Positions 5,376-45,400 of a stretch of DNA of 64,000 nucleotides are shown here, piece after piece; within the stretch, counting starts at the first letter, position 1; every line of letters begins with the position of its first letter. Location of the stretch: positions 23,840,646 through 23,904,645 of the forward strand of contig NC_088311.1 of NCBI RefSeq assembly GCF_910592395.1, given 5' to 3'. The translations under genes were made by a program, and so were the position numbers. This DNA is from Lineus longissimus (taxonomy: Eukaryota > Nemertea > Pilidiophora > Heteronemertea > Lineidae). Under the pieces are notes generated by a model. It did no database searches. It saw nothing but the letters and a program-made list of their open reading frames with translations, and was not told where the DNA came from.

Positions 5376-5385
5376 GCCACCATGG
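5376..5385 (+). promoter_or_regulatory. Kozak context of ABCA start
   Basis: The word GCCACCATGG surrounds the initiator at 5382, a textbook vertebrate-type Kozak match. It fixes the start, because the peptide that follows ([14 protein letters not shown]) aligns with the ABCA1/ABCA4 N terminus. A likely 5'-UTR acceptor (CTGTTTTCAG) ends at 5300, so an untranslated first exon probably lies upstream. Confidence 0.75.
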
Positions 5386-8300
5386 GCTTCTGGCTCCAAC
5401 TAAGAATCCTGCTATGGAAAAACTTCATGTTGCGAAAGAGGCAACCTGTAAGTATTGTCAGGCATGAGATGAAAAAATGGCTACAAGACTCCAGTCGCCT
5501 TAAAAAAGAAGGCGTAGTATAGTTCACCTGACCTTATTTACTCCTTGAGCACAACATGTAGAGGGTTTCATATTGCAAGAGCCTAATGCATTTCATTTTT
5601 ATGCGTTATCAAGCTACCTGAATGAGTTATGTTTCGACTCGGCAGCGATTACCTGCCTATAAGACATCTCACTGCCTTAATTCACACAATGTACTTTATC
5701 AGATATCGACAATTCTTTTCAGGGCCGAGTGACTGTTGAGATCGTGTGGCCGTTGTTACTGTTTCTTATCCTTGCCTGGGTTAAGACGAGGGGATTGCAA
5801 GAAAACATTCATGAATGTAAGTATAGAGCAATACATGAGTGGCCTGAAATTGATGCCTCGTCCCTTGAGCCTGTCTGAACACCAAGTCACAAGGCCAGTG
5901 ACCAAAATTGATACCCTACTGTACATGTAGTTGGTGCTGTTGCCAGAAGAAAGGTCTTGGACTCCCAAAACAGCCCAAGCACTCAATCAGACAAAAAGAG
6001 CGTTGATCTATGTCGCAGCTGACTCTTATATACAATGCAATGCGTCCATTCAGCAGCACAGGATAAGAAACTAAAATCTCCAAAACTTTCTGAAGTCTCT
6101 TTTAAAACAGAAAGTCTGACAAGGTTTGAAAACTGTGTTGTGCCATGGATTCTCCTCTGGCTCTGGTCTTCTTTTTCTTCCTTAAAAGTGTTTGGGTTCC
6201 TGTTCTGAGGACCGTGATTCAATCATGTTATAATAGTATGATCATAGTATGCCACTGAAGTGCTTCAGTGCATCCGTTTATAATCTGGTATGCTACGAGC
6301 GACACTTGGTAGAGGATCATGAATTCACTGGCAGCCAGCTGCCATGCTTTGAGTAAAGGCATTATGTGCTCAAATTTCCTCCAACCGCAGTCCAATTTTG
6401 AACTCAGTAGAGTGGATGGCATTTTCTGTAAGACCATACAAAACATCATTGTTGCAATCGAGACGGGAGGTTCCAGCATTACAGTGGCTACTTTGAGGTC
6501 AGATCCATATTACATCAGGAGAAAATGTGACTCGCTCTACCAAAACTAGGCGCTTGTCGCATTTGAACTTGACAGGTTGATACGGACTTGTTGTTCATTT
6601 CCCTATTGTAGACCTTTTGTGAAATCTATTACAAACTGATTTGGTCACATTTCACAAAAGGTCTACAATAGGGAAGTGAAGAACAAGTCCGTATCAACCT
6701 GGCAAGTTCAGATGCGACACGCGCCCAGTTTTGGTAGAGCGGGTCACAAATATAGGTCATTTCTCAGTATGTGTCTTGAGAATATCCTTATAGAAAAGCC
6801 TTGCATAAAACAGTTGAATAAGGATTATTTTAATGCAAAATCTTTAGAATTTTGTGCAGTGACATATATGATGTCATATTGGCAGTGTGTCAAATCTGGT
6901 GTATACAATATGAATGCCGTACAGGGAAGTTTATGCATGATTGGCTAACAAGTGGTATATGTCGGTGCATTGGTACTACAAACTTTGCCATAACTGTAGA
7001 CAGTAAAACCTGCCATTTTAGCGCGCTATAGGACTGCTGTCTGTTTAACCACAAAGGTCCCCTTGTTGGGCCAACAGCAGATTCCTCTCCCTTCAAATCT
7101 TCTCGTGTCTCGGGTTTGTCTGCTCTTCTTGTGCAGAAATTAACAGGAGTCAGCATCCCTACTAAAGAGTTTTCTGAGGCAGGGCCTGATATTTTTTTGA
7201 TAGTTTTCTGAAATTTGCAAGTAGCTGTCATGAACAAGCGATGACTGGTTTGGTTAGAAACTCTTTGAACATATCCTGATTTAACATGACACGTCATGCT
7301 TCATGCTGATTATGTTCAATCTGATATTGGTTTGCGTAAGTTGATGCCTCAGGCACCTATTCCATAGAGCTATACCCTATACTATACTATACGCGAACAA
7401 TAGTTTCATGGTCATGCACCCTTTGTGAAGCCATTGTTCGCGTATAGTGTAGTATACCGTATACCTCTTATGGAATAGGTGCCTCAGAGTAGCATCCTTG
7501 ACTAATTGGTAACCTTAATTAGTGTTCGACTTCTGATTGATTTTTTCGGTAGCAGACGTACGTGTCACTGTATGATTGCGTGGGCAAAGTTAATGATTAA
7601 TGCTCTGTGATACCAAGAATTTAGTATTCTTGATGATACTGTAAGTTATATTTGTGATTTACATGTAATAACCCCCAAGGAGTGGCATGTTCTTCCATAC
7701 ACCATTCTCTTAATCTCGTAGGATAGCGTCCCCCCCCCCCACAACCCCCCATAGGAGGAGGACATTATCTGCCCTGGTGGGCAATGGTAGGCAGGCACGT
7801 TAGTGCCATCCCTATTGATTTGCAAAGTTTTATCGGCCGACCATTGATGCATGAATTACCAGCAGTAGGATCCATTGAAGGTCACTCACAAAGGTTGATT
7901 TTGCACAGTGAGGGCCTCGTTCTGAATCTCTTTCTTAGCTCGGCACCCCTGCACATGTGGTGTTCACATGTTTTATTCAAGTATTTTCCATGATTTTTGT
8001 ATGATATTGAAATTTTTCAAATTGACGAGGTATGATGTTGATCATTATGCACACATAAAGTGTATGACAAACAGCAGTATATAGAATAATATTTCTAAAG
8101 CCATTATATATATTAACAAAAGCCATTTATTCATTAGTAGGCCTCCCTGTCATCAGAACTTCTTTTTAGATCATAAACATATAATGAAATGTGCACCGAA
8201 CCACTGACACTGACTCAGTATAAAAATGCCTATTGACTTCAAGTCGTAAGCCTATTTTCTAACCCTGGACAAACCCCAACTCTCACATAAAGTGTCCTTA

Positions 8301-11300
8301 TTTCACAATTGACTGACCTGGTAAATATGGATATGTGTGTTGGAGACATCGTAGCAGATTACCTGAGTCATTGACATTATCAGTAAAGTGTAATAAATGA
8401 AGAAAAAAAGACCCCTTTCCAGCCCCCTTTCCAGCCCCCTCCCCCAAAATGAATTCCAAAGCCAGGATGGCTTTCAAATGGACTTCATCATAGAAATAGT
8501 CTCAGTTCCTTATTTTCCCTGAAGTGAAGCCACTAGTGCAGATTTAACAACCTGGAAGAGGGGGTTTGGTCCACAACTGTCTACGTGGTTGGGCCGTGAA
8601 AGTGTTAAGCTGGGGGTATAGGTAGCTAGTCAGTGGTTAGGTTTCATGATGCAATAGAAGATAATTACCATTGGGTTTGAATTTGGTGTACTAATTTCAT
8701 GTTTAGAAGCATGCCTCTGTTTCGAGCTGAAAAAGCCCAACTGAACATCCAGGATTTGGCAACATAACAACCTTGTTCAGGATCAGCACATGGATATTTG
8801 AAACTACATGTTGTGAAAGCATACCGCTTTATTGACGAACTTGAGTTAAATTTCTCGTTGCTCTCTTGCAGGTCATTATGATGGGAAGCCTATGCCATCA
8901 GCAGGACTTGGGCCATTCCTTCAGGGGATCATCTGCCATTCAAACAACACTTGCCATAAGACAGTGAGAGAAGATGAGCTCAGAGGAAGGGTAGATACAT
9001 TCAACAACTCGCTGTAAGTTTCATCATTTGACCTCCTTTAGTCAGGAGCCATCATCATTCATGCTGTTTGGCTTGTGATAAGACTAATGACAGACTTGCT
9101 ATAGGCATGCAATGAAGTTGTGATTGTTACTTTTTGTAGCTAACAGGCTATATTTATTAGCAGCAGCCCAGCTTATAACAGTTTAGCTGTATCACGACTG
9201 CATAAGATTAAAGGGAACTGGAACCGCCGAGCGATTTATTCAACTTTTCGACTTTCACCGCCCGAGAAAGTCAAACTTCCAACTTCCTATTCGAGTTCAG
9301 ATTTGTAGCTCCGCCCCCAGTGCCCGAGCATGCGCAGTTCAATTTGTTATTATTGAGAATCATGTGAGAATCACGTGAGTCATGCGATCTTTCATTCATG
9401 AGTTTTCGTAGTAAATTCCATAGTAGTGACGTCACTCAATGATTGACAGCTAGGCGCCATGTTTCATTCTAGCCTCGTTCTGATCACCCGATATGCGGGA
9501 AATGAAAACGAGGTCATACGAACTGGCTTGGCGGTTTCAGTTCCCTTTAAGGTGGATAGGATCAGGAACAAATAACCCAAATAAGTACAAACGCCCTCTA
9601 TCTATTTGACTTCAAATCTGCTTACCTTCTAGAATCTCGAGATTATTTCGTGATGTGGAGAATATACTCGGAAATAGCTCGGAAGTGGAAGAGATTACTA
9701 ATCTGATTGATGATTACAACACGCTGGAGACGATGGGTAATGTCATCACCAATGGATCGAGCAAAGGTACGTGGCTAAAACACAGTGGCTCAGGATGAGG
9801 ACTAGACTACTGGGCATAACGTGATCAGTCACCCATTTGAGTGTGGTGACCCCCAGGCCCAGCAGCTTACTCCGACTCTGATTATCTTCCATATAGCAAT
9901 TGCCATCTCTCAAATAGGAAGGGATGGTTAATGTCGTCCTCTGGATCTTCCCGTAACCGCCAAAACACTTTAGCATTATTGAAAAGACCTAATATTTTTT
10001 ACTCTCCAAATTCATTTCAGGTGGCATTAAGATCGGCAGCCTGTTTGTACATCCAGAGAACCTGAAGCAGACCATCGCCAAGCAGAACATCAGCTTAACG
10101 CCTGCTGTGGTGGATGATATTCTCAATGCACAGTTTGACCCTCAAGCAGTGAGTAATATTATACCAGGCGTAAATGTAGGCAATTTGATTTTTGACGCAT
10201 GAAATGCTGCTGCAAAATGACCAGAAATGTTCTGGAATGTTTGGTCATAGATTTCTGAACTGTCCTAGACCCGCACACAATTTTTATTGGAATCATTTTT
10301 GTTGTGGTTGTTATGATTGTTGGTTCCTGCCACAATTAAGAAAATAAAGTTAACCAAGACATTATTTATTCCCAATTTCAGTATCTAGAGTACATCACCG
10401 GACAAAACGCCTCGTCGTTACAAAACATATCTGCAATCGAACTCTTTCAAGACCTCCGCACATTCAACTGGTCCGAAGAGAATGTTAGAGAAATTGTATG
10501 CGATACTGCAACGAATACGTCCAAAACTGAGCAAATCATCATCTATCGCAATACTGCGGAGGCAGAATTGGTGAAGGATCAAGTGTGTAATCTTACCAGG
10601 GATGAGCTCACAACACTACTGAAGGATTTTCAGGATCAGTACAGATTCTGGAAGGTCATGGAGCAGGTCAGTAGGGCCCTGATAATCCACAAATTGGAAA
10701 ACTGGTATGGAAGTTGCCTTTACAAAACGCTGAATTTAGGGTTTTGAGATTTGAAAGGTGGATTTTGAGATGTCTTCTGGGTTTTTAGCATTTTTTAAGG
10801 AATTTGCAAAATGAAAAAAATGATTTTCAAGCTTCTATGCATTCTTTATTCCAGCTCTCTGAATATGCCATGAATAATACCGGCAAGCCCATCAATTTCA
10901 ACAACTCGACGTATCGAAGATGGCGGAATATTCTGGATGATGTAAGTCCTAAATCTCAACTTGGGACTCTCATATGCTGTCCTTAATAGAGAGGTGTCCT
11001 GAATTGAATGGAAACAACCAATTTTGGGACCATAACTAGTGTCCTTTATAGAGAGACTGTCCTTAATAGAGAGGTGTCCGCTAAGGGAGGTGCCACTGTA
11101 TAGTCTTTCATGAGTAACTTGAAGGTCAGAAGTATCTAAGATCACCCACCTTGCATAATTCTGACAACCTATGACCAAGAACAAGTGATTGTTAAGGGCA
11201 GCAATGTGGAATGTTGCCATTTTTAGGCTAAAGGCATGTAGTACCAGCCACTCACAAAATGTACGAGAACCGTAACCTTAAAAGTTGGAATCAGAAACAG

Positions 11301-14272
11301 ACTTTGTATGCACATTTTCTTTCTGAAACTAACTGTTGCAGAATCATGTGTTATTTCAGATCAATAACCTCGACAGCTTTAGCAACCTGATATCAGACGG
11401 CAATGCTACCGTCCGGGACGTGATGGATATGGCACAGGAGAGGAATGCATCGACCTTGATGCAGGACATCAGCGCGATATTCTGCGGAGAAGGCAACAAG
11501 ATCTTCCAGTCCAAGGGTGGCATGGGGTTGTTCGGTGCCGGTAGTAACCCCAAGAAGGAGGAGGAGAATGAAGAAGCTAGGGCAAAAAAGGAAAGAGAGA
11601 AAGAAAAAGATGATGGGTACACAGGGTACATTTACGATAATGATACCAGTAAGTTTTTAGGGATACTCCTTTGATGTCACGGCTCACCCAGTTTCTGGAC
11701 AAGAGAATTGCAAACACTCTATGATGGTACATGTAATAGCATGGAGTTTGTAAGGACTAAAACTAAGAAATTTTAATTAGAAAGATGATAAAAATTATGA
11801 AAATTCGCTTCCCACATTGACCGGAGGCAGCAATGCTCAAAAGCTTCATGATAGGTTTTCAAATTGGACCATGGAAGACCTTCACCCGTTGGAACTTTCC
11901 ATTCCAGCTCCCTTTTGCAATGACCTCTTCAAAACTGCAGAGGAGACCCAAGTCACTAGAATCCTATGGCGGGAGTTAAAACCCCTGGTGCGCGGGAAAC
12001 TGCCGTATTACCCAGATAATCCTGCAACTCGCAAGATTATTGAGCAGGTAAGGCTGTATATAAATTCTTGGTGACGGAAGGTCGTTGGATTGAAGCGTCA
12101 AACTGCCATCAATATAGATGTTCTAGATTGCCAGTGATGAACCTAACCAGAAGCGAATGTTGATAAATTTGATGTCTTGAAAAGCATTGACGTGTAGTAA
12201 TGATGGCCACCATGAGGACACTTCGTGACATGCTTGTGGGAAGAGGGTCATACAGTGTACGACTGGAGACCAAAACCGAATGTGATAATTGTATGAATTG
12301 CTTTGTTTTTTCCACAGGCCAACAGTACCTTTGCTGAGCTCTCGATCCTAATGCGTCTTGCGAAAGACTGGTTGGACTTCTCTCCAACACTCTACAAGAC
12401 TTTGGATGGACCCCAGGGTGATATCGTCAGGGTGAGTTTAACGTTTTAGCCAGAATCTTTTCTAGAGTGCCACAAACACCCAGGCTTTCAGTCTGGAGAG
12501 TAATGTTTTCTCTGTTGATTTCACAAGCTCTAGTCTAAAGTTCTTCATGATTGAAACTCATGAAAAGCCTTTGCTGGTTTTATGCACTGGAAAGGTCACT
12601 CGCTTTTTGAGATTGTGTTTGGTGCCAAAATTCTAAATCCAATGCGGAACACGTACACCATTCACAATGCATTAATCCAATGGATAGATGGTCACTTACT
12701 GGTCATTTGATACCAACATCTCAAATTTGCTGATATTGGCGCTGACAAGATTCTTGTACGCAACCATTCTGTTCTTCTACATACATACATACATTATAAA
12801 ATTTGTGTGGGGCGCCTTTCCACCGAACAAATCGTGCTCAAGGCGCTGCCCCCTCAAAGTGCCTCGCGTACAGCCAGGTCTTTAACTGACATTTGATTTA
12901 AGGACATCTGAAGCATCCTGAATATGAGGTGGGAGTTGATTTCTAACAGAATATGCATTGTTTCTTCCAGTCCTTCTTCTCACAATGTGAACAGCTTGTG
13001 CCGCAGGCCCAGCTCAAGGAGAGATGTGCCTTCTACAGCAGGTACCTCTACAACGGTCCAAAAGACCCGGACAAGTATGACTGGCGTGATTCGATTAGCT
13101 ACATGGACAAGTACATGAAACAGCTGTATGACTTCCTGCAGGTGAGTCCAGCATTTAACAGCATATTGTTACATAAGAGACCTTTTGGAGTTATTGATTC
13201 AACCCTTGAAGCATCTACATGGACTTAGAAATGTTTTCATCCTTCAGATTTGAATTTTTTCAAAGTTCAAAATTCTGAAAAATTTTCAAAGTCAAAAGTA
13301 GTTTGGGGTTGATGATGTTTCTTCATTTTGAGCAGAAAAAAAAAGTGAAAAAAATACTTGTACTTGAAAATTTTTTCATCTTGCAGAGTTGAAAAGTTCA
13401 AAATTCTGAAAAATTTTCAAAGCAAAAAGTTTTTTGGGACTGATGATGTTTCTTTATTTTGTGCAGAAAAAAAAAGTGAAAAAAATATTTGGACTTGAAA
13501 ATTTTTTTATCTGTAGCATGACAAATTTGCCGCAATCACTTTTTTAACAGAAAATCATGGCAGCATTCGTCTTTTCAGTTCTCATCATTCCACATTTCAG
13601 AATGCTCCAATGTGTTCGTTGATAAACGCTGCCTGACTTGATGCAAATCACATGATTTTTTGCTGTCGGTACCCAGCATGTCCAACACTGATACTTACAC
13701 TTGGCCTTTTTGTACAAGATTGAATGAGAAGCATTTGCTAGTCTTTATAATATTGCCCATTGAACTTGCTGGTGTCTTTTTCTCCAGTGTTTTGAGTACA
13801 ACAAGTTTGAACCCCACGAGAGCGAACAGAGCCTCGTCAATGCCAGTCTCAATTACATCGAGAGTAATAAATACTGGGGAGGTAAGACTTGCATTTGTGA
13901 TACTTTGAAATGTGAGATTCAATATGAAAAAACCCTGTTTAGAAATGGACATTGGTGAACACAGTCAAATGATGCAAGAAAAGTCAGATTTCTAGAAAAC
14001 ACTTGCTTTTATTAGTGCAGTTGAATCAGTGTTGATCTAAACATGTAACTTACAGTTGTAAACTTGGCAAGAAGAAGAAAAACAAGAACAAAACATAGAA
14101 TTGGTCGCTGTATTTACTGGGGCACCCTGTATCTTTCCACTCCCCACGTTGCAGGTATCATCTTTGACTTGGGCAACTCCAATGGATCGACCGTGCCGAG
14201 TAACATTTCATACAAGATTAGGATGGACACGGACAAGGTGGACGGCACAGAAAACTTCAAAGTTCTAGACAG
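5382..14272 (+). CDS. ABCA exons 1-13: TM1 and first extracellular domain
   Basis: Residues 1-620. Exon 2 carries TM1 ([16 protein letters not shown]), followed by the family hallmark [20 protein letters not shown] at the start of ECD1. The rest is the large ectodomain. It has several NxS/T glycosylation sites and a conserved PFCNDLFKT block (exon 9, cf. PYCNDLMKN in ABCA1), and ends with the conserved [10 protein letters not shown] (exon 13). Exon 8 holds an unusual Lys/Glu-rich insertion (11552-11610, containing [20 protein letters not shown]) in what should be extracellular chain. Introns contain the MITEs listed separately. Confidence 0.9.
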
Positions 14273-17200
14273 GTCTGTTGACAAATTCAATTACAGGAAA
14301 TTGGGACATTTGGGAAGAAAATTTACAAGATTCAACTCATCAGTTTTTATCAACCAAGTTTTAAGGAAGCATGGCACCCACAGGCTATGCCTCTCCCCCT
14401 AAGCATTGATGTGGTTCACGCAAAGCTCAGGATAACCTGGTTAGGATCAGAATGAGTTCTTAGTCTTTTTTGCAATGCATATGGGAAAAACGGGTCCATT
14501 TGTTTGTAAACAAGATGTAGATGGATGTAAACTATCGACAATTCTTCTGCATTTTTTATAAAAGAAGATAACTTCAATGAAGTGCATGTGATTGTAGGTA
14601 CTACACGCCAGGCGCAAGAGACAGCCCACGAATTGACTTGAGCTATTTCACTTATGGATTTGCGTACATCCAGGACATGATTGAACACGGATTTGTCCGT
14701 GCTGTCACTGAGAAGGATGTCGAGATGGGGATATATGCCCAGCAATTCCCCTATCCGTGTTACATCTATGACACGTGAGGCATTCAGTACAATGAGTTGC
14801 ACACTGTACATGCTTTGAGATAACTTAACCGCCCAGTTTTAGATCAAGGCCACTGATAACTCAAGCCTAATCTGACACTGATAACGCTTTCAGTAGATTT
14901 GTACCTGCCCTTTAATTATAGGGACCCTAATGTGCTGAAGTGACATCTCTTGTTCTGTGCAACACTACATATACATATACATGTAGTGTTGCGTGCAACA
15001 GGGAATGTTTCCTTTGAGCAGAACTGTTGTACAGAAATAACTTGGCCTGTGTCCACCTAACCCTCATACTATGCTTCTAGATTGTACAGTCCAGGTCCCA
15101 GAGCTCGGGGTGGGATTGACACCAAATATTTCACGTATGGCTTTGCATACATTCAAGACATGGTCGAACACGGGATAATACGGTCTGTTACAGGGAAGGA
15201 CGTTGAGATAGGAATCTATGGCCAACAATTTCCCTATCCTTGTTATATTCATGACAAGTGAGTCAGGTGCTATGAATACATGTATTCATCTGCTGTTAGT
15301 ATCGAGGCCTGGGATAGATTTAACCCTAAATCGCAACTCAAAATTTGTTATTTGAACGTGGTGTGAAAGAGGCAATAAATTGGACATTTTCACTGGACTC
15401 ATTAGGGACACCTCAGTAACATGCAAGTTTCACCCAGGAACAAGCTTAGTGAGTAGACTATACTTGCCAAGTGGCTGACAGTAAAGTATTGGAGATTGGA
15501 TGCGACACCATCTGCTAAGATTCTAAGGGTGGCGCATGTGCGTGGCCTGATGTCACTTCCTGCCGGTGATGCCTAACCTGATGAACAACAAACTTTAATC
15601 GGAAAATTTCTTCGTAATTTTCTAATTTTGAGTTGCGGTTGCTAGGTTTTAATCATTCCAAGTGAGTTTGGTGTTGTCTGTTCCTGGTGCATGAACGTCT
15701 GCTTCGCTGTATGGGTGACGTCTGCTTTACTTTGCTGCATGACTTATCTCCGCCATTGCTTTGCTTGTGCTTGTAGATTGTGGACCCCAGGTCCAAGAGC
15801 TAGGGCAGGGATTGACACAAAGTATTTCACTTACGGATTTGCGTACATCCAAGATATGATTGAGCACGGTATGATTGAAGCAATCACCGGGAAATCTGTT
15901 CAAATGGGTGTCTTTGCTCAACAATTTCCCTATCCTTGTTATATCTATGACACGTAAGTACATAAGTCGTATAACCAGGTTTGTTTTCTCAAGTTATTTC
16001 TTCCTCTATTTCTATATCGCTTGTAAATTGCTTGCATGATATCTTATATGCACAGTTGTGAAGAACACCTGAGAATCGACTGCTATCAGTAGTTAGCGCA
16101 CTGAGGGACCTGCATGTAAACCATTCCCCTTGATGGTGCATGCTGTTGACACCGTTGAAAAGTCTCGACTGGTCAGGTATATTAAGCTCTGTTTCTTGCA
16201 CTGATCAACTGGTTGGACATTCTCTCTGTAAAAAACACTATCTCTGTTAAAGACACTCTCTCTGTTCTATATAATTATTGTAAGGAGATCGCTTAAAGAC
16301 CATTGGTAGTCAGCTATAAATCACAAATCATGCTCAAGGAATAATTGTCAAAGTTGTGACAAGCCTTGAAAATCTTGTTGATATATGTTAACAGACCGTC
16401 ATTTTTTCACCACGGCAGGTTCACCAAGGCTATCTCAAGTAGCATCCCGATGTTCATGGTGTTGGCGTGGGTCTACACCGCTGCGATGATCGTTAAGGGC
16501 ATTGTCTACGAGAAGGAGAAACGCTTGAAGGAAGTGATGAAGGTTATGGGCCTGGGTGAGGCGGTCCACTGGGTCGCCTGGTTCATCAACTGCTTCGTCA
16601 TGATGCTCATCAGTGTCATCTTGTTGCTTGGAGTTCTAAAGGTTGGTTAGGTTTTCGTATGATCCTGATCCAAGTTTTTTCCCGACGCTTTTGTATTGCT
16701 ATTGAAAGCCTTTGCAGCTGCGATAGTCAGTAACAACCCAAAGCTACTGTCAAGCCTTCAATCATGTGCTGTACATCAGGGCTGAGTCGAGACTAGCTGA
16801 GATCATAGTGTACGGTGCCTAGCAGGTTCATACAGTGCCGTGAGGCTGGTAGACTTGGGAACCTGTCAAAGCAAAGTCCAAGGCTTTCTGAACAGGTGCG
16901 TCGGGCGCAACGCTAACAAAAAACATTGACCGTCATTTTTCCCAGTCTTTGGGGGGCAGGTTTCTTTGTTGCAAAGTTTGTGTTGTGTCCATTGCTGATG
17001 GGGTTACAATATCTTCTCTGGTTTTATTTCAGTTTGGCAAAGTCCTGAAGTTCTCCGACCCGTCCCTGCTGTTCTTTTTCTTCTTCGCTTTTACGGTAGC
17101 GACGATAATGCAGTGTTTCCTGTTGAGTTGTTTCTTCTCGCGAGCCAACCTGGCGGCCGTGTGTGCGGGAATCATCTACTTTACGCTGTATCTACCGTAC

Positions 17201-20200
17201 CCGCTCATGTTTCAGTGGGAGGAGATTATGACCATGTCCCAGAAGGCGACAGGAGTAAGTAGCGAACAACACTTAACGTCTGAGTATTTCCCAGGGGAAA
17301 TGGCCTTGCTTGCATGGACACAATAACACAGTGCCTCCGGGGAATGAACCTTGATGGACATGTCACATTCAGCTGTAGTTACAGCACCTTTTATGATGAA
17401 TATTAAGATGTTGGCATACAGTTATTAGAGTTAGACTATTCCTACTGCACTGGTACTCTATCCTTCCTCATTTAGGACTTACCCTGGTGAAATGAGGTTG
17501 TTTGGCAAAATTCTTGAAAAAGAGTTTTTTGTGATTGATTCATTTTCCAGAAAGTTATCTTCAAAATGTATGATGCATGACAGTGTGGAGGGTTGACTGA
17601 GATATAGACTTGGAAATAGATAACTCTCGTCATTGTTGTGTTGGTCATTGGAAGAAAAATAAGGCCCATATCTATGGCAAGCCGTTTGCTTCAAAAAGTC
17701 GAGATGATTTTTTTCAAGTCGAGATTTTTTTTTCAAGTCAAGAAAAAATATTTCAAGTCAAGAAATTTCTTCAAAAAGTTGAGATTAGTATTTTCAAGTT
17801 TACACATTTTTTTTCAATTCTACAAGTTTGTTTTTTTTTAAGTCGACTTTTTAAATATATATACATATTTTTTTTTTAAGTAAAAAAAAAAGTTTTTTTC
17901 ATTAATTTTTTTATATACAACTTATCAGTTGATTATTTTTCTAATTCTTTTAAATTTTTTTTCAAGTCGATAAAAATTTATTGTAAATGACTAATTTCCT
18001 ATTCAACAAAAAAAAACACATTCGAGACAGAAAAAATAAGTCGAACATTATGACGTCATCACTTTTCGTGTACAGTATGTAGACTCGTCCCCAACCGTTC
18101 TCTTGCTGACTTCGCATTCTAATGCCCACATATATACATAGCAGGGGACCAGTCTATACAGTATGCAAGATAGCGGGAGGCGATGTTGTTGACATTGCCG
18201 AGTGTCTGCGTCAGTGTCCCGCTATGGTCCGGCGATCTGAAAGGGCCAGACAATCATTAGATCAAAACAAACTAGAGAACTGTTCCAGGCTACTAGATGA
18301 CATTCTAGGAATTCTGAGTGCGCTGTATATACGTGCATGCGATCACTTCGGTGCCGGTGTAACATCTGTGGTTGTTCCCCATGTGTCAGTGTTTCCAAAC
18401 AATAGGCAGCTAGAGAGACCACGACTTTTCAATAGGGGGGATACACAGAAAAACTTGTCAATCTATTTTTGAGCGTTCCCAAACAATGAGGGGAAACACT
18501 CAAAAACAGAAACACTCAAAAACATTACACCGGTTCCGTTTTGGCAGAAGATTTTGCGGAGGTCTTGGTGCCTATGCACAGCACTAACGATCAGGTATTG
18601 CACGCGATAGAGGGTTTGCAGAATAACACGACACACGGGCCTGATCGCGGCTGGCCAGGTGTTGAATTAGGCGGCGCGCGCAATGTACACAAAAACTGAT
18701 GACGTCATAATGTTCGACTTTATTTTTGTAGCGCTCGACTGATTATTTTCTCGAGTATGAAATTTTTACTCGAATATGAAATTTTTACTTTCGACACTAT
18801 TTCGGTATTTATTATGTATCATTATCATATTTTACAAACACTATTTTAATTTTTATAATCATTTTTTTCTCGCAGTGAAATTTTTATTAATTGATTTAAC
18901 TTCAATAAGTTAAATGAGAAGAAAAATAAATATCTCGACTTGAAAAAAAAATTTATTTCAAATTTTTTTTCTTGACTTGAAAAAAATCATTGCGACTAGA
19001 AAAAAAATCATTTCGACTTTTTGAAGCAAACGGCTTGCCATACATATCTGCTATCCGAGTTCCTTTTCGGGGACTATAATACAAGTTTTACAACATATAT
19101 CGATTCCAGTGCCTCCTGTCCAATGTGGCGTTTGGATTCGGCTGTAGTTACATAGCCCGCTATGAAGAACAAGGAGTGGGAATCCAATGGCACAACTTTG
19201 CAGTCAGCCCGATACCAGATGACCACTTCAACATGATGCAGTGTATCATCATGATGTTTGCCGACGCACTCATTTACTGGATCCTAACCTGGTACATCGA
19301 AGCTGTTTTCCCTGGTGAGTTTACCATGAGTTCTATCCATAGTTTATTTCCCCAGTGGCTCCATGCTCTTGTGGTGGAATAGTCGGCCCTATTGAAGAAA
19401 GGTTGTGGATTTGATAATAGTAATACTGTTCAGCATTTGTATAGCACTCCTATTTGATTCACATTTAACTCGCAAGTGCTTTGGCATATTACCGGTTCTC
19501 GTCTCCTGTAGTCAGCAATGCCAGCAAGATGTTCGGCTTCTGCCACTTTTGTTCTTTATTGTTTGACTCTTGCAGGCCAGTATGGTGTACCCCGTCCATG
19601 GTATTTCCCCTTCACTAGCTACTACTGGTGTGGCTCGGCTGCTAACAAGGAAAACATCGACATCAATGTGCGAAATGAGATGGAAATGGGAAGTGAGTAT
19701 ACCATCTTTGTCAATTCTTGTGGACAATCGCTCAAGACAAAAAAATGTGCCAACTGTAGACGCAAACCGAAGGTTTCTGTCCATGTGTCTTCACTGACAG
19801 ATGTGATGAATATTACTAAATATTGAAGTTTATTTTCAGGTACAGATGAATTCGAGATGGAGCCCAACAACTTAACCCTCGGCCTGGCGATTAGGAAATT
19901 AAGGAAGGTGTTCAAGCGTGGGAAAAAGACAGCTGTTGATGGCTTGACCTTGAACTTCTACGAGGACCAAATCACCTCATTCTTGGGTCACAACGGAGCT
20001 GGGAAAACGACAACCATGTAAGCAGAGTCATCTCCCTTGCACTTTCCATGATATCTTTAGAAGTTATTGAAACATATTCTTGTGACATTTTCATTAGAAA
20101 GCACTGAGTTGAGCACTGTAGTTTGATGGTAACACTTGTGTTATCATCATTAGATAACTATTAAGGTGACCATGTTTCCTCCAGAGTAACCGCTGTTGCC

Positions 20201-23200
20201 CAACAACTTCGGTCAGTTGAGAAGGTTGGGATATTCCTGTCAGTTCCAGTGGCTCACACGTCCCTCTTTACAGCCTCCTCCCATCGCGTACTGTGTCTTC
20301 CCCTTCCTCCCCTTCCTAACTTGTGTAATGATCTCACTTCATTTTGCCTCAGGTCTATCCTGACTGGTCTGTTCCCGCCGACAGAAGGGACAGCCTTCAT
20401 CTACAACCAGGATATCCGCACGGAGATGGACTCGATCCGAAGAAGTATGGGGATGTGTCCACAGTATAATGTACTCTTTGATAGGTGAGTCAAATCACCA
20501 AACTTATGTCGCAGTTGTAACTTCCATTCTGTTGCTTGTTTAAATATGGGACTCTGGCAGGCGGTTGGAATGACATCTTGAGTCATGTTTTGATAATGTG
20601 TGTTATCGACGAGTTCTCTCCATTCATTTTCTAGCCTCACTGTTGAAGAGCACCTGTGGTTCTATGGACGGTTGAAAGGAATGGATACTGAGAGTATCAG
20701 GAAAGAGGCCGCTCAAATGATCAACGATGTGGGCTTGCCTCACAAGAAGAATGAGCCAACGTCATCACTCTCTGGTAAGGGTGGAGAAACGTCTTCCGAT
20801 TTCATTCCGACTGGCCCAATTGAGGAGCTCTCCTTGTGTAATCTGGAGCTGCTTCATGAGGTCAACCTTAGAGAACAAAGCTTTACCCTTGATGTTTGGA
20901 TTGCGAGTTTTGTACGTGAACCAGAACAGACAGATTTCGGTTTTCTGGCACGTCCTCCAAGCATGAACTTTAGCTATAATTTCAAACACATCTTTTTTCA
21001 GGTGGGATGAAGAGAAAGCTATCTGTTGCCATAGCATTTGTTGCCGGATCTCGCTGTGTCATTCTGGATGAGCCAACAGCTGGCGTGGATCCCTATGCCA
21101 GGCGAGCCATCTGGGACTTGCTGCTCAAGTACAGGAAGGGTAAGAGGTCAACCTAGTCCAGAGGAATCTCAGACAATTCCCAGCTGATTACTACCTGTTG
21201 GTTATGAAATCGTGATCTGTGACTTATTCCCCAGATGTTATGCGGTTGGCTGCTCTATGCAACTCTATGCATTGTGTCATGCATCGTAGTACAGTAGGAC
21301 TGGAAGTTCAGTCCGCCTCAGTGAAGTGGTTAAAATTCCAAAGGTGGCTTTACCATTCTATCCTTTACTTCTTAGGCCGTACAATCATTCTCTCCACCCA
21401 TCACATGGACGAGGCTGACACCTTGGGAGACCGCATCGCCATCATCGCAGATGGAAAGCTCCGCTGCTGTGGCTCCAGCCTCTTTCTGAAAGCACGATAT
21501 GGAAGTGGCTACTACCTGACCATGTCCAAGCAGGATGAGAGCAGAGCGAGGACAGAGGCTAGTTCCATCGCTACGAACAGCCGGCCCTCGTCTGCTAGGA
21601 CAATCAGGGATATTCAGGTAGTTATTGCGTCATGAGCCGAGTGATGAGAACACAACCTTTTATAAACTTTGGGCTATTTTGTATACAATTCTTTCAGGCT
21701 GGCTCTGACCACCATAAATTGTCATCACAGAGATTTGTGCTGGGTAGCTACTTTCAACATGGTTCTCCAGTGACATCTTGGAATGACCAATTGAGTTGCG
21801 GCAGTTGGAGGTGCATATTTGCTAGGATTTCAGTAATATTGCAGTCTAAATTGTGATGTTTTTCTCCTGCAGCTTGAAGATGAGGCCGCTGGCATTGGAA
21901 ATGGTGATGCCAAGCTTCCATTTAACAAGCTACCACCTGATGATGGCATCAGCGTTAGTGCATGCAATGAAGCCTACGTCACGAAATACGTCCAGAATTA
22001 CGTCACAGGTGCTGTTTTGGTGGAGAATATTGGAACCGAGTTGATGTTCCAGTTACCCGAGGAGGGTGTCAAGTCTGGAGAGTTTGCACGCCTTTTCTCC
22101 AATCTTGACCAAGACTTGGATGAACTTGGGATATCTAGTTACGGCATCTCTGACACGAGTTTGGAAGAGGTGAGACGCTTTGAATCATATGTTTATTTGG
22201 CAGCATTCGACAGTCAAATAACGATCCTTTACCAGACGGGTCGATTGGCCTGCATCATTTGTGATTTCTGTCAACCTCAGCACCAAGCTGTCCAATGGTC
22301 AAGTCCAATGTCTTTGTGTTTTTGCAATGATTAACAAAGTGGTCTTCGATCGGTGAAATTAGAGCACTTTTGATTCTGATCCATTCCTGTTGATTTGAAG
22401 GTTTTCCTGAAAGTCGCTGAGGAGGGTGAAGAAACTGATGACAAAGATGAGAAGGCTCGTCAGAAGCTGGAACAAGAATATGATGGTACGTGAGAACTAC
22501 CTGATATCGTAACTAAGCCAACATGCCGTCATTATTTCTTACGCAGAACTACATCTCATTGATGTTTTAATCATTGACAGATGTAATAGTTTTGGGTATG
22601 AGATTGAGTGTCTGTAGGCTGTTAGTCCTTATGAAAGAAGCCCCCATTAGTTTAGATTGCTTTGTAGTATTTCTACTAAGACGAGACTTGTGAATCCTGA
22701 CACCTGGCTTCAGACAGCTAAAGCGACATATGTGTATTGATATATCTAATTTTCAGGTGGCAAGTATCCACGTCCTGTGTCGAGGTTGAGCTTCAGGCGA
22801 AAGAAACTTGGGATCACCGGAGGGTTCACCTCTGCGGCAACGGACAAGCAGGATCTGATCAACGGAAATCTGGATGATACGGGTAAGTTTACCACATCTC
22901 TGAGATCATTTGCACGCAAGTTCCGGTTGTGAACTCGATTGTGGATTGCTGGTAATGCAAAAGTATACGCCTCTCTGCTGGCCACAGCAAATCATTCACC
23001 AGGCTCTGGTCCATTAGGTGTGCACTGCCAGTACTATTAGCAAAAAAAGTTAAGTTTTTTGGCTAAAGGAAACTTTAGAAAGTAGGCTAATTGGTGGTTG
23101 TCTAGGGTAAGCAGAATCAAGGGTGCTCCAAGGCCTTTTGAAAGAGTAAGGTCCCAGGAACAAAAAACCACTGAGAAGACCATGACTGGAACAAATGAGA

Positions 23201-26200
23201 AAATGACATCATATGTAGCCCACTCTTTAGAAATGACTCGTTTTAAAATGACATGTTGCAAGTGATAACATGAACTCTATGTAAACCTAGCCTAATACAA
23301 TATCCCATGTCATTTCCAATACTAGCCAAGAAATATGTGAAGAATGGAAAAGGATTGTCTGATGGGAGAGGTACTCGTTTTGTCACAGTGTCTGTTTTAT
23401 GTTTTTTTCTCACCCAAGTGATTCCAACTTCTATCTTCTGTTCCCCGTACTACACTCTGTGCATGAATGTTTGTCATTGTCTCCACACAAATGGTCATTT
23501 TATTTTGTTGGATTCCTATAAAGACTGAGAAACTTTCTCAAAATTGTTGCAATGATTCAGCACACTATTTGTAAAGCAAGTTAATCTTACTAACTGCTGT
23601 TGTTACGAGACAATATTCCACAACCTTGAAATAACTGAGTTATTTTATTGTGACGACATATTGCATACCCATGACGATAAAGTTTGATGGTTTCAGATTC
23701 TGTCATATCGATGCCGATCAGTGAGCCTGGTGATTGTAATGGTGCTGGGTCATACAAGGTTGCTCCCGGCTTCAGCATGTTGTGCCGGGAACTGAAGGCG
23801 CTCTTCATCAAGAGGTTCCATCATGTCCGCAGGAGCAAGAAGGGATTCGTCGCTGAGGTAGGTAACGTTGACACTGAATTTTCTGACCTATCACTCACCA
23901 AAAGTATGAAGAGGTCGTGATGTCATGAATACATTATGAATTTAAGTAGGTGGGAGGCCACGCGCTGCACTAAACTTGGTCTTGGTAACTGAGTTGTAAT
24001 CCTCATCATCGTTTTTCAGATTATCCTGCCAGCTGCGTTCGTGCTCCTGGCCATGATCTTTGCCCTGATAACGCCCCCGCTGACCCCTGACCCACCAATG
24101 GAAGTACACCCCTGGCTCATGACTCCGAAAGATGGAAACTTGAAGATGTTTTTCAGGTAAACAGGATTTCTCTTGTGTATGCTCTCACAGTGTCAGATAC
24201 TGTGAATCACCACATTTTTGCTGGCATATTATTTTCATGTAATCTGCGACTAATATCGACAGTTGTACCACATTACCTGTCCTGATGGGTCATTTAGTCC
24301 CTTATCTCTTGCTTTACAGCAATGACGCGCCACCTGGAGACTTTGCCGACAAATACGTTAATCATTTGTTATCGAAAAACGGACTGGGAACAAGATGTCT
24401 CGACCCTGATGTTCATCAAATTGAGTAAGTATTCTTCAGTTACCAAATTAGTTTGTGTTTGTGTAAGGTGGATCATCTGTCATTATAAACCATGTTAAAT
24501 GCAAGACACCTTGCTGAATTCCTGGCGCTGGTCATCACCTGCTTGATCTCTTCACTCTCGAACACTAACTGCCGTTTCGATGCGAGACGCTGCCATTATA
24601 ATGAGGCAGCCAATCAGAATCATCGGAGTGATTCGCTTGGTCACTGCCTACAACTCACCTGTCACTCTCACTATAAAGCATCACCTCTGATTGTACTTTT
24701 TACTCTAAAATTGGACAATCATGTTTTCAGCGGCTTTCCCTGCCGACCACTTCAAGACAAAACCAAGTACCAATTCTCTGCACAGCCGCTTATGACTGGG
24801 AACCTTTCCATAGACTCGCCTAACTGTGATTGTAGTACTGGCTACCAGCAGTGCCCAGCTGGGGCAGGAGGGCCGGAACCATCCAAGCGTCTCCATCAAA
24901 ACACGGACACCATCTACAACATGACTGGAAGAAACATCTCGGACTGGATCACCAAGACCATGAAATCGTATATCAAACAACGGTAAGATACCTTATTGTT
25001 CAATCTTGAGAGCATTGAGCATGGGGTGATGTCATTGTTTCGTGTAAATAAGGGTTTATAGTGACTCTATCCGGGAGGAGAAGTCAATCCCGGTTTACTC
25101 ACTTGAATAAGGTATTTTACTTGCCCTGGCACCGGCAGTGAGTATGCGGAATCATGCTGAGTCTTGTTCAGAGGACATTGCAATCACTGATAAGGAGATT
25201 CACCCCAAGGAATGTGACTGTGACACCACAAGCCACACACCCCACAGATCCACACAGTTATTTTATTCCACTGTAATGTTGTTTCACTACAGCTACGGTG
25301 GGTACTCCTTCGAAGTTAACGCCCTGGCCAAAGATAACTCCTCTACCCTCCAGAAGAGCCTAGAGAGAATCTCGTTGGCATTTAACAATGGCAAGCCAGT
25401 AATGGATGGAAGCAATGACTTCTGGGATGACCTCGACAGATTCATCTACAACTTTGATTACAGGAATGCCACCAAGGTCAGTGATTTGAGGATGACACGT
25501 GTGAGGTTGAAGTTATAATCCCAAGCTCAGTTAATGCCTGCACTCTATGCCACATCTTGTGTGATGGTCATTTAGAATCATTGGTCTGCTGTTGCCAGCC
25601 TTTCACAGGAGTTCAACTTTACTTGGGTGCAGGACAGTAATTTGTTCAAGAATGAATTGACCAGAAATAAGTTACAACCATCCAGGTGTCTGTGAATCAA
25701 GTCTTGATTTCATTCAAAAGTATTCACTAACCATTCTCGCCTTTAGGTTTGGTTCAACAACAAGGGCTACATCTCCTTCATTGCGTATGCAAATGGCATC
25801 AACAACATTGCCCTGCGTTCGAACCTACCCAAAGGGATGGACCCGAATAAGGCGGGAATCACCCTCATCCAGCATCCCCTGAACCTGACCAAGTCGCAAC
25901 TGATCGGTGAAACAGCGTAAGTCAATTTATAGCTTGATCTTTATCCTTTCCTAATCTGTTTCTGTTCCTATTCTCAACAGCATCCCAATGCTGTAACTTG
26001 TCCAACCCTGGCTATACTGCATGTTCTGTTCATTTTAGGAAACAAGGCTATGTGGATGTGCTGATTGCCATCTGTGTGATCTTTGCCCTATCATTCATCC
26101 CAGCAAGTTTTGTGCTCTACCTCATTGAAGAGAGGACGTCCAATTCCAAACATCTCCAGTTTGTGAGTGGTGTTAGTCCCTACATCTACTGGTGTGCCAA

Positions 26201-29200
26201 CATTGTCTGGGATCTGGTAAGGACAAAAGTTTCTTAATCATTTCACAAGAGTTGACCGATTATCATGGTCTGGAGCGTCATAAGGTGCACTGCGTAAGCC
26301 CGAAATTACACAATAGATTGGTTTCGCAGGCGCACGGATAGAGTAACGTGAACAATTAGCAGCGGTGACGTCATCACTACTTGCGGTGTCGTGACGTTGT
26401 ACGCAACGTCCCTACGCGTAAACGGAGGGAAAAGACGGATAGCGGGCTCGATACACGTAAACGCAAACGGACAGCAAATTTGACGAGTTTTCACTGACAC
26501 AGAAGTCGTACATCCCGAGCAGCACCTGTAATAGTTATTAGGAATATTGTGCTGTAAATAACTGGCTTTTGTAGTCGATATCGCCTATCCATGCAGGCAA
26601 AAACAGATAATGAAGTCGGGTTGCCACCTAGACTTAAATGTAACTGTTTTCTCGTGCGCAGCGAAACCGCAGAAATGACGCAGCAGTAAATAAAACGGTT
26701 ACGTCTAGCTAAACGTTCACGTCGCGCTATCCGGGCGCCTGCGAAACCACCCTATTATCCGTTGATAAGGGGTGATGTTGAGTGCCAAAACATTCAACAC
26801 TTGACCACGCTGCCCATCACGAATTCCATCATAATCCTACACTGTACCTTGATGTATAGAAGGTCAACTGATATTTCAATATCATGTTTTCAGATGAACT
26901 ACATTGTACCAGCCACCTTGTGTATATTCATCTTCTTGGCCTTCAACAAGCAATCCTACGTGTCCGCAGATAATGCTCCCGTCCTCGTCTCCCTGTTGCT
27001 ACTCTATGGGTGAGTCTAGTTCAATGGCTCAGTAAAGTCTTGATATTAAGGCTCCAGTTCCAGTGAAAGTTGTTTTGTCCTGTTTCGATCAATGTTGCGG
27101 TGCCAATCTCAAAATTGACGCCTGGGTCAACTCCCTGATGCTGCTACTGAGAATAATCTTTGCAAGAAAGTAAGATAACTTTTACGTCTTTAAACTTGTA
27201 TATTCAAACTGTAAACGGCACGGACATACACCAATCTTTGTCGGCAGAGGATCTATCTCGCCAGAAATCTCCTGAACCAGGGTTTCAATGGGGACAATAG
27301 GCTTGAGGACTTGGACTTGGCTTGGTCAGTTGGAATATACTCGGGCTCTGAACTTCGGGCAGAAGTTTCACCGGTTACTGTTAGTACGACGCTTGCTAGC
27401 GCTAGCTGGCTTGCTTGCTATTTAACTTTGTTGCTTCCTTCAGCAATCAGGAAAGCTCCCTTGGTTGGTTCTGCCAAATGCTCAGAGGACCCACGTTATA
27501 TACCCCCAGACCAACGCCAAGAATGCATAAACAATAATTGAATTGACGTCATACAACATTCCTCGCATACCAAACTCTCGGATGACGTAGGTGATGACCT
27601 AGTTGCCGGGGAAAACCCACGCAATATGCTAATTAGGTTGAGTTGCTATCGAAACTGACCAGCGCGGTTACCAACTGGGGTGGTAACAAACTAAAGTGAA
27701 TATTTCTTAACTTTGCCGCTAATCGGCACCAACATCGGCCCCCCCTAAATGCAACCTTGGAGGGCGCATTTACATAACATATAACACTTACAGTTTCCCC
27801 AGAGTATAACTGCTATCCAAATATTCCCAAAAGAATTAATTAAGTCCAAATGGAATAGTCCAAAGAGTAGTCCAAAATATTAACTACATGTACACAAGTC
27901 CAAATGAATGTCACACACATAATCCACAATTATGCGAATGCTGATGTCCTGCACTGAACTAAATATGCAAGACACAAAATGCAAGTCCAAAACTAACATG
28001 CACTAAAACGTTAATCCAAATCAGAAAATGTTCGTAGTTAATCCTGGTTGTGATCATCCGCAGTTGCCTCCAGCAAAACGATTTTGTTGATCGGCCGCAC
28101 CATCTTATCGGTAAAGGCTGTCTTCAGCTCCACAGAACGTACCAATCCGTCTTTTCCGGGGAACGTATCGGTGACTCGTGCTAACGGCCAGTGAGATCTT
28201 GCTAAAGACTGGTCGAGAACTAAGACCAAATCGTTTACGCGTATATTCGGCTGTTCGGCAATCCACTTTGATCGGACTTGAAGAGCAGAGAGGTATTCAG
28301 CGGTCCATCTCTTCCAAAACTGATCGACGACGAATTGGACATGTCTCCACCGTTTTCCGAACATGTCAGCCTTTCCAAAGGTTCCGATTGGCGACGGGAA
28401 TCCCTTTCCAAAAGGACGCAGCAAATCATTCGGTGTTAGCGGGAGTTGGTCTTTAGGATCGTTGGAGACGACAGTCAGCGGACGGCTATTCACGACGTTT
28501 TCAACTTCGGCAAATATCGTATCCAAGCGTTCATCATCGAGGGACTGCTTTAGTAGTATGGAGTTCATCACCTTCCGGGCAGTTCGGATGTTGCGCTCCC
28601 AGACACCGCCCATATTCGACGCTGTAGGGGTATTGAAGGTCCAATCAATGTGGTTCTGCAGCAAGTATTCTTTAAGGCGATGACTCTCATTCCACTGGGC
28701 AATCGATTCTCGCAGCACACGGTTTGCGCCGACAAAGTTGGTGCCATTGTCGGACCGGATCAGCTTTGGAACTCCTCGTCTTGCACAGAATCGGATTAGG
28801 GCGTTGATGAAGGAGTCTGTGTCCATGGACGAAAGCTTCTCTAGATGAATCGCTCGCATTGACAGGCAGGTAAACATACATCCATAGCGCTTCTCTTGAG
28901 AACGTCCCCTCTTAACGTAAAAGGGACCAAAAACGTCAACACCCAGACACTGGAAGGGATACTTTGATGGTGTCACTCGTTCAGGCGGGAGATCTGCCAT
29001 CTTCTGCTGCCCCAGCTTGCCGTGAAGCACTTTGCAAACAATGCAGTCTCTGAGAACTCTTTTCACCAGCTGACGGGCCTGTGGAATCCAGTAGTTCTGC
29101 CGTAAATTCGCCATAACGTGTTCTCTGCCGGAGTGCCTGCAAAGCCGCTCGTGCGCATCTCGTACGATGAGTGTTGTTACGTGGTCATCTCTCGGCACAA

Positions 29201-44449: not shown

Positions 44450-44628
44450 TTTTGCGTAAAAAGATTGCTTTGTATGTTTTGTACAGATGAAAATTTTAAA
44501 GATCATGTTTTCACCTTCATATTATGTTATCGATTTGAGTGTCTCTTTGTGTGGTCACAAATGCAATGAGTTTGGTTAGTTATATCGATATATATATATG
44601 TATTTGTAATACTCACTTCTATGAACAA

Positions 44629-45400
44629 TGACACAGCGAGGTTTACGCAATATTCTATTCCAGAAAACGCTTAGCGCAATATTTGTCATCGAAGAGCTGG
44701 TGAAATGTTGTTTTATACACGATGATAGGCTCGAGCTCAGTCGCACATGCAAATACACTTTCTTGCTGAGTTTAATTTACACTTTTGAAGTATGTTTTTG
44801 AATTCAATAAAAGGTACGTCTTGCAGTAATAAAATGAGGGAAAAGCATTGTTTGTGCTTATTGAAGTACATGTACACAGGGCAGTAGCTATGACACAGAG
44901 AGGTTTACGCAATATTCTATTCAAGAAAACGCTTACCGCAATATTTGTCATGGAAGAGCTGGTGAAATGTTTTACGATGATAGGCTTGAGCTCAGTCACA
45001 CATGCAAATACACTTTCTTGCTGAGTTTAATTTACACTTTTGAAGTATGTTTTTGAAATCGATAAAAGGTACGTCTTGCAGTATTAAAATGAGGGAAAAG
45101 CATTGTTTGTGCTTATTGAAGTACATGTACACAGGGCAGTAGCTATGACACAGAGAGGTTTACGCAATATTCTATTCAAGAAAACGCTTAGCGCAATATT
45201 TGTCATGGAAGAGCTGGTGAAATGTTTTACGATGATAGGCTTGAGCTCAGTCACACATGCAAATACACTTTCTTGCTGAGTTTGATTTGAACTTTTGAAG
45301 TATGTTTTTGAAATCGATAAAAGGTACATCTTGCAGTATTAAAATGAGGAAAAAGCATTGTTTGTGCCTATCGACGTACATGTACACAGGGCAGTAGCTA
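44629..45400. repeat. 255-bp tandem repeat, about three copies
   Basis: GCAGTAGCTATGACACAGAG-type starts recur at 44881 and 45136, with a truncated start at 45391: exactly 255-bp spacing. A first, more diverged copy starts near 44629 (spacing 262, with an 8-10 bp insertion). Units share TTTACGCAATATTCTATTC and AAGAGCTGGTGAAATG. It lies directly downstream of the ABCA 3' end. Three short minus-strand ORFs recur because the unit length is a multiple of three; they have no recognisable domain. Confidence 0.85.

Follow-up and report, generated by a model that had tools for sequence, protein, structure and literature searches.

Mutually exclusive exons are described as neighbouring exons that are similar in length, homologous and alike in frame and splice phase, with junction reads leading from each copy to both flanks and none joining two copies (PMC5740500). 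By analogy, the nearest known system to the locus described here is the exon arrays of MRP, and the nearest in logic is the selectivity-filter exons of NALCN. MRP belongs to ABC subfamily C. Its arrays, reported from insects and other animals, likewise place tandem homologous exons in an ABC transporter; the duplications are described as independent in several phyla, and competing RNA structures have been reported (PMC6071210). The gene from Lineus longissimus differs in that it belongs to subfamily A, carries its array in the ECD1-to-TM2 segment and shows no significant intron pairing. In NALCN, exons 15a and 15b are likewise exclusive copies that swap the stretch deciding what passes the membrane protein, and these alternative selectivity filters are reported from molluscs and other invertebrates (PMC3557258). 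NALCN is an ion channel with two copies, whereas the Lineus gene encodes a lipid exporter and has three.

Two further systems are relevant for the control of exon choice. In FGFR2, the RBFOX motif UGCAUG just upstream of exon 9 is reported to repress that exon, favouring one of exons 8 and 9 over the other (PMC2880598), and a similar layout is found in Lineus. FGFR2 is a vertebrate receptor gene with two exons in which the RBFOX effect was shown by mutation, whereas in Lineus the effect is predicted. Exon 12 of Scarb1 offers a likeness as well, being a case of RBFOX2 control of a lipid-handling membrane protein through an upstream site (PMC9771820), but it is a cassette exon of a mouse liver receptor and the Lineus exons form a tandem array. 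Among the titles and abstract openings listed in searches of the open PMC library, no case of mutually exclusive exons in an ABCA gene was found. The type of exon cluster is already known; for this gene family and functional site we found no earlier report.

How ABCA1 takes up phospholipid is disputed, the alternatives being alternating access and extraction through an extracellular gateway (PMC9381790). The gateway is described as residues 564-592, a charged ECD1 loop that picks up membrane phospholipid and leads it towards a tunnel; the aromatic pair Y573/W574 is said to shield the lipid (PMC9381790). According to the same source, four Tangier point mutations lie in the gateway (D571G, R587W, W590S and W590L), and 25 of its 29 residues are unchanged across 34 species. 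These species range from mammals to bony fish and hence offer few natural gateway variants. The source also reports efflux losses of 80-85% for D581K/E584K/D585K and of 95% for F583K/W590E, both with surface expression retained (PMC9381790).

We analysed 64,000 nt of the genome of Lineus longissimus (Nemertea; genome paper PMC8593623), with 42.8% GC, referred to here as the window. The features needed for the argument are the following.

5382..44029, plus strand: ABCA1-like gene, 47 coding exons of isoform X3, 2441 amino acids, rebuilt from the window
14155..14272, plus strand: exon 13 of X3, phase 2 at its end, which lies directly ahead of the counterpart of human residue 573, donor CAG/GTCTGT
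14598..14774, plus strand: exon 14a, 177 nt, used in X3, with a divergent gateway
15081..15257, plus strand: exon 14b, 177 nt, with a canonical-type gateway (Lys at human 587) and a Lys junction codon
15777..15953, plus strand: exon 14c, 177 nt, with a canonical-type gateway (Lys at human 587, Trp at 574)
16419..16641, plus strand: exon 15 of X3, TM2 onward according to the gene model and predicted structure
44030-44032, plus strand: TAA stop of the ABCA1-like gene, directly after the last X3 codon

A protein search with a rough gene model gave 'phospholipid-transporting ATPase ABCA1-like isoform X3 [Lineus longissimus]' as the top match of 905; the database entry is a cluster of 9 member sequences, one contig. 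The 47 exons in the window reproduce this protein without a single mismatch, with 14a alone as exon 14 and with 14b and 14c skipped. Pfam domains of the product are ABC_tran (twice), ABC2_membrane_3 (twice) and R1_ABCA1, giving the two ABC2-type membrane halves, two nucleotide-binding domains and ABCA1-like R1 domain of the ABCA1/4/7 type. Sequence matches in the PDB were ABCA1 first, followed by ABCA7 and ABCA4, and fold matches of the predicted N-terminal part were headed by ABCA4 and ABCA1 (E <= 3e-31, TM-score by query 0.45-0.57). Judged by its sequence, the gene is an ABCA1/4/7-like ABCA transporter. A closer identity with the ABCA4 'rim protein' (TIGR01257) was rejected, the score being 2065.8 bits against a curated cut-off of 4012.85. 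The label 'isoform X3' suggests that NCBI annotates several isoforms, in which case its record may already imply that alternatives exist. Elsewhere in the gene, exon 8 (11360-11648) holds a lysine- and glutamate-rich low-complexity stretch, located in a part of ECD1 for which confidence of the structural model is low.

The original prediction described three tandem, interchangeable copies of exon 14, and their coordinates, their lengths of 177 nt and phase 2 on both sides all proved correct, as did the junction residue, which is Lys in 14b and Thr in 14a and 14c. Each copy is preceded by AG, followed by GT and has an open reading frame. The three exons hence agree with the published description of mutually exclusive exons in similar length (177/177/177), homology, and shared frame and phase, and 14a was the one copy seen joined to the flanking exons, in the annotated protein X3. 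The splice sites, which had been called good, are mostly not. All three acceptors are weak, with scores of 4.6-5.5 against a gene median of 8.7, and of the 45 other acceptors in the gene only 6, 6 and 8 rank below those of 14a, 14b and 14c, respectively. The donor of 14a is weak too (4 of 45 other donors score lower); those of 14b and 14c are good, outscoring 30 and 28 of the 45. Because 76-111 of 1750 intronic AG decoys reach an equally good acceptor score, these scores do not prove exon use.

We consider it quite probable that the copies of the triplet, which lie in a nemertean gene for a lipid exporter of the ABCA1 type, are mutually exclusive exons. Of what had been proposed, the ABCA1-type gene and the interchangeable tandem triplet stand as observed, and X3 uses a single copy; that 14b and 14c are used, and that the copies are used exclusively, is what we infer from the sequence. 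One ancestral 177-nt exon would have been copied twice within the nemertean lineage. With one copy taken up per transcript, the gene would yield three forms of the transporter, each with its own distal gateway loop and its own turn ahead of TM2.

The choice of exon is not controlled through the reading frame, since transcripts with none of the copies or with several (ab, bc, ac and abc) all stay open, as had been expected for multiple inclusion; control by frame shift and nonsense-mediated decay was rejected on this ground. Steric exclusion was set aside as well, as the introns between the copies (306 and 519 nt) would be too long for it, and so was U2/U12 incompatibility, every site being GT-AG. 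With the non-significant intron pairing described below, no strict exclusion device was found among these four. This, and the fact that every combination tried is in frame, would suit an arrangement in which the copies are cassette exons taken singly, in pairs or all together. We regard such non-exclusive use as quite improbable: X3 contains one copy, and a repeated segment ahead of TM2 would extend a part of the protein that occurs once in each of the best 120 of the 905 matching proteins.

Nucleotide identity between the copies is 71-75%, with 52 (a-b), 50 (a-c) and 45 (b-c) differences in 177 nt, and whole-codon differences number 17, 18 and 15 of 58 for the same pairs. Beyond the exons, similarity continues for about 9 nt on the upstream side and 6 nt on the downstream side, and no match was found among the four cluster introns (blastn, E 0.01), indicating that the duplications are old. 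The exon divergence of 25-29% and the unmatched introns rule out both chance and a recent assembly duplication. Synonymous divergence is high (dS 1.6 for a-c, 2.1 for b-c, saturated for a-b) and dN is 0.14-0.21, giving dN/dS ratios of 0.131 (a-c), 0.068 (b-c) and <0.061 (a-b, with the saturated dS put at 3). Third codon positions take most of the changes (32/50, 29/49 and 28/44; chi-square P 2.4e-5, 5.9e-4 and 1.1e-4).

Neutral simulations (3000 each, with 45, 50, 22 or 25 nucleotide changes) were compared with these values. With 45 or 50 changes, there were never fewer than 20 or 22 amino acid changes, against 15-18 observed, and a stop arose in about 80% of the runs, whereas the observed copies have none. 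Together with dN/dS, this rules out long-dead copies. With 22 or 25 changes, the median was 15 or 17 amino acid changes and 43% or 39% of the runs were stop-free, so a late loss of one copy remains compatible with the data. On the simplest reading, purifying selection at the protein level maintains each of the three copies, and use of all of them would follow from this.

A tree was built from 43 exon sequences: the three Lineus copies, the human exon and 39 of 119 other listed homologues, hand-picked for spread. The Lineus copies form one clade (support 98/99), apart from all other sequences, including that of another nemertean, Tubulanus polymorphus, which we take to be a palaeonemertean. The branch of 14a is the longest (0.45, against 0.11 and 0.19 for the others). 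As the tree rests on 58 columns, it does not settle the deeper forks, and gene conversion could also pull the copies together. Identities were further compared with 97 distinct homologous exons, i.e., the human exon and the 96 that were left of the 119 after removal of duplicates. Mean identity was 0.517 for 14a, 0.567 for 14b and 0.561 for 14c, and the closest copy was 14a for 2 homologues, 14b for 44 and 14c for 30, with 21 ties. This marks 14b and 14c as the conservative copies and 14a as the divergent one, even though 14a is the annotated copy.

These comparisons also bear on whether 14a might be the only working exon, with 14b and 14c as unused relics of duplication. The use of 14a in X3 and the weakness of all three acceptors are in line with that idea, but 14b and 14c are open, have kept acceptors and good donors, and are more like the homologues elsewhere than 14a is. 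The 14b-14c dN/dS of 0.07 at a dS of about 2 is unlike that of long-dead copies and compatible with recent death. We therefore hold it highly improbable that 14b and 14c are relics.

Exactly one exon-14 equivalent is present in each of the best 120 of the 905 matching proteins, X3 included, whereas the Lineus gene has three. At the level of these listed proteins, this agrees with the earlier remark that no such cluster is known in vertebrate ABCA1/4/7. A protein search with 14b gave a top identity of 65% among the best 120 of 379 matches; X3 itself is also not among these, so their silence on carriers of 14b says little. A second protein search for carriers of 14b or 14c found none, the best identity being 53% over all eight of its matches.

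Exon 14 aligns without gaps to residues 573-631 of human ABCA1 and represents the same 59-residue stretch. The human exon for this stretch is also 177 nt. Lipid access, which had been proposed as the property tuned by the cluster, can be made more precise, since exon 14 falls on the published ABCA1 gateway: by the numbering of that work, it is the distal gateway that exon 14 is predicted to encode (PMC9381790). The proximal gateway would be encoded by exon 13, which ends just before residue 573. The copies vary at 25 of 59 positions when the codon at the junction is included. The variable positions are spread over the gateway (10 of 20 positions), the next helix (1 of 10), the turn at human 603-616, which lies outside the gateway (9 of 14), and the rest (5 of 15).

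The substitutions set 14a apart. Human position 587 is Lys or Arg in 96 of the 97 homologous exons; 14b and 14c have Lys, whereas 14a has Ser, which occurs in none of the 97. Copy 14a also carries Asp at human 580 and residues found in 0 of 97 at 583 (Arg) and 610 (Glu). Rare residues in the other copies are Gly at 582 in 14b (0/97) and, in 14c, Met at 604 (0/97) and Glu at 606 (4%). At human 573/574, where the shielding aromatic pair is located, the copies have YY (14a), LY (14b) and LW (14c). The net charge over the 20 gateway residues is 0 in 14a and +2 in both 14b and 14c, compared with -2 in human ABCA1. With the basic residue at 587 lost, an Arg gained at 583 and a charge of 0, 14a likely has a new function.

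An AlphaFold model of residues 1-920 was generated from 34 aligned sequences, 33 of them hand-chosen homologues (mean pLDDT 76.5, pTM 0.56). Confidence is low to medium in the predicted gateway loop (about 613-641; block values of pLDDT 42-66) and good in the helix after it (642-658; about 89), and the long helix that begins at residue 680 of the model was taken as TM2. The variable parts are modelled as a flexible loop and a turn, for which the model cannot show contacts.

Whether the swap acts on lipid capture can be weighed against an effect on trafficking, folding or binding of the extracellular lipid acceptor, which would leave the exon cluster itself untouched. Some Tangier mutations in the 573-631 stretch of human ABCA1 impair trafficking or acceptor binding, and the changes in the turn affect a part outside the gateway. 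On the other hand, the changes at half of the gateway positions include charged and aromatic residues, and the human gateway mutants reported to lose efflux keep their surface expression (PMC9381790). An effect on trafficking, folding or acceptor binding is in our view rather unlikely. For the preferred step, a change in lipid capture or hand-off at the gateway, the chances seem roughly even.

One Lineus gene would provide three gateways, all under selection, on an otherwise identical protein, and one of them, 14a, is without the basic residue that the Tangier mutation R587W removes in people. A three-way comparison of the isoforms would test the gateway idea directly.

Selection of a copy was expected to depend on RNA structure or on regulators. 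Exclusive choice through competing intron-intron pairings, in the style of insect MRP and Dscam, has its precedent in an ABC transporter (PMC6071210), and would replace the regulatory step proposed below while leaving the cluster intact. Some long helices were found in the cluster (14273-14283 with 16386-16396, and 15033-15045 with 15989-16001), and the best common docking window, at 15528, reached a weakest-arm P of 0.083 (60 shuffles). The docking/selector signal expected of such systems did not emerge in this single genome: the summed P was 0.2 and none of six intron pairs was below 0.15 (60 shuffles). Whole-intron pairing gave one P of 0.03 and values from 0.24 to 0.9 for the other five pairs (100 shuffles), as expected by chance. 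Choice by RNA pairing is accordingly judged unlikely. As pairing did not exceed shuffled sequences while RBFOX motifs were enriched, of the two mechanisms expected regulators are the better bet.

Inverted repeats were noted in both introns between the copies. The one between 14a and 14b (14943-15008) has 31-nt arms that are 74% complementary, a spacer of 4 nt, and ends 73 nt before 14b. The one between 14b and 14c is imperfect (79%; 15309-15345 and 15624-15662), possibly a small inverted-repeat element or hairpin; its arms have no other copy in the window (E 0.01), and a 24-nt stretch between them matches 33359-33382.

Six copies of UGCAUG lie in the cluster introns, and none in the intron between 14a and 14b.

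14583..14588, plus strand: UGCAUG, beginning 15 nt before 14a
15688..15693, plus strand: UGCAUG, beginning 89 nt before 14c
15736..15741, plus strand: UGCAUG, beginning 41 nt before 14c
16033..16038, plus strand: UGCAUG, 80 nt after 14c
16111..16116, plus strand: UGCAUG, 158 nt after 14c
16137..16142, plus strand: UGCAUG, 184 nt after 14c

These six occur in 1615 nt of cluster introns; the remaining introns of the gene have 13 in 29,356 nt, so the enrichment is approximately eightfold. The expected number is 0.7-0.9, none of 1000 shuffles reached six (mean 0.94), and the binomial P is 3e-4. As a named motif, UGCAUG in the flanking introns thus exceeds chance, as in RBFOX-regulated exons, but it does not survive correction over all hexamers: it ranks second of 1236, behind GATAAC, and corrected as an unguided discovery its P is about 0.15. 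Six or more copies are reached by 4.3% of the 1615-nt intronic windows in the gene, and the richest of these, with seven, starts inside the cluster and runs into the introns after it. Thirteen patterns, one of them a reversed control, were counted. The GCAUG core was also raised in the cluster introns (8 against 2.1, P 0.001), as were YGCUU (11 against 4.6, P 0.002) and UAAC (13 against 6.8, P 0.013), while the control CAUGCA was not (1 against 0.7).

Trans-acting splicing factors, working on three weak acceptors, would probably select the copy, and the leading candidate is an RBFOX protein. RBFOX usually enhances an exon from sites downstream of it and represses an exon from sites upstream. 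Applied to the positions found, this rule predicts that the site 15 nt upstream represses 14a and that 14c, with sites on both sides, is affected in a mixed or positive way, the three downstream sites helping it. That RBFOX sets the choice of copy is the least certain step of the mechanism, a serious possibility rather than a probability. The complete picture would be that of three interchangeable gateways: those of 14b and 14c canonical, that of 14a with its basic residue shifted from 587 to 583 and serving another lipid or another movement, and RBFOX switching between 14a and 14c in different cell types. The locus would then be an exchange of gateways made by nature, a trial of the gateway model of ABCA1. 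Taken as a whole this picture is tentative, and we regard it as somewhat doubtful.

Other motifs stand out in the same introns. Among hexamers, GATAAC shows the strongest enrichment in the cluster introns (14273-16418) relative to the other introns of the gene (5 against 0.3 expected). Three close copies of YGCUU, an MBNL-like motif, lie at 15757-15776, directly before 14c.

Repeats were also found outside the cluster. Intron 34 contains two direct repeats of 642 nt (27093-27734 and 34635-35276), about 7.5 kb apart and 100% identical, which probably represent the LTRs of a retrotransposon that inserted very recently. Just after the gene, tandem arrays occupy 44628-45400 and 46204-48081, with a 255-nt unit present 3.0 times (95% matches) and further units of about 62-133 nt.
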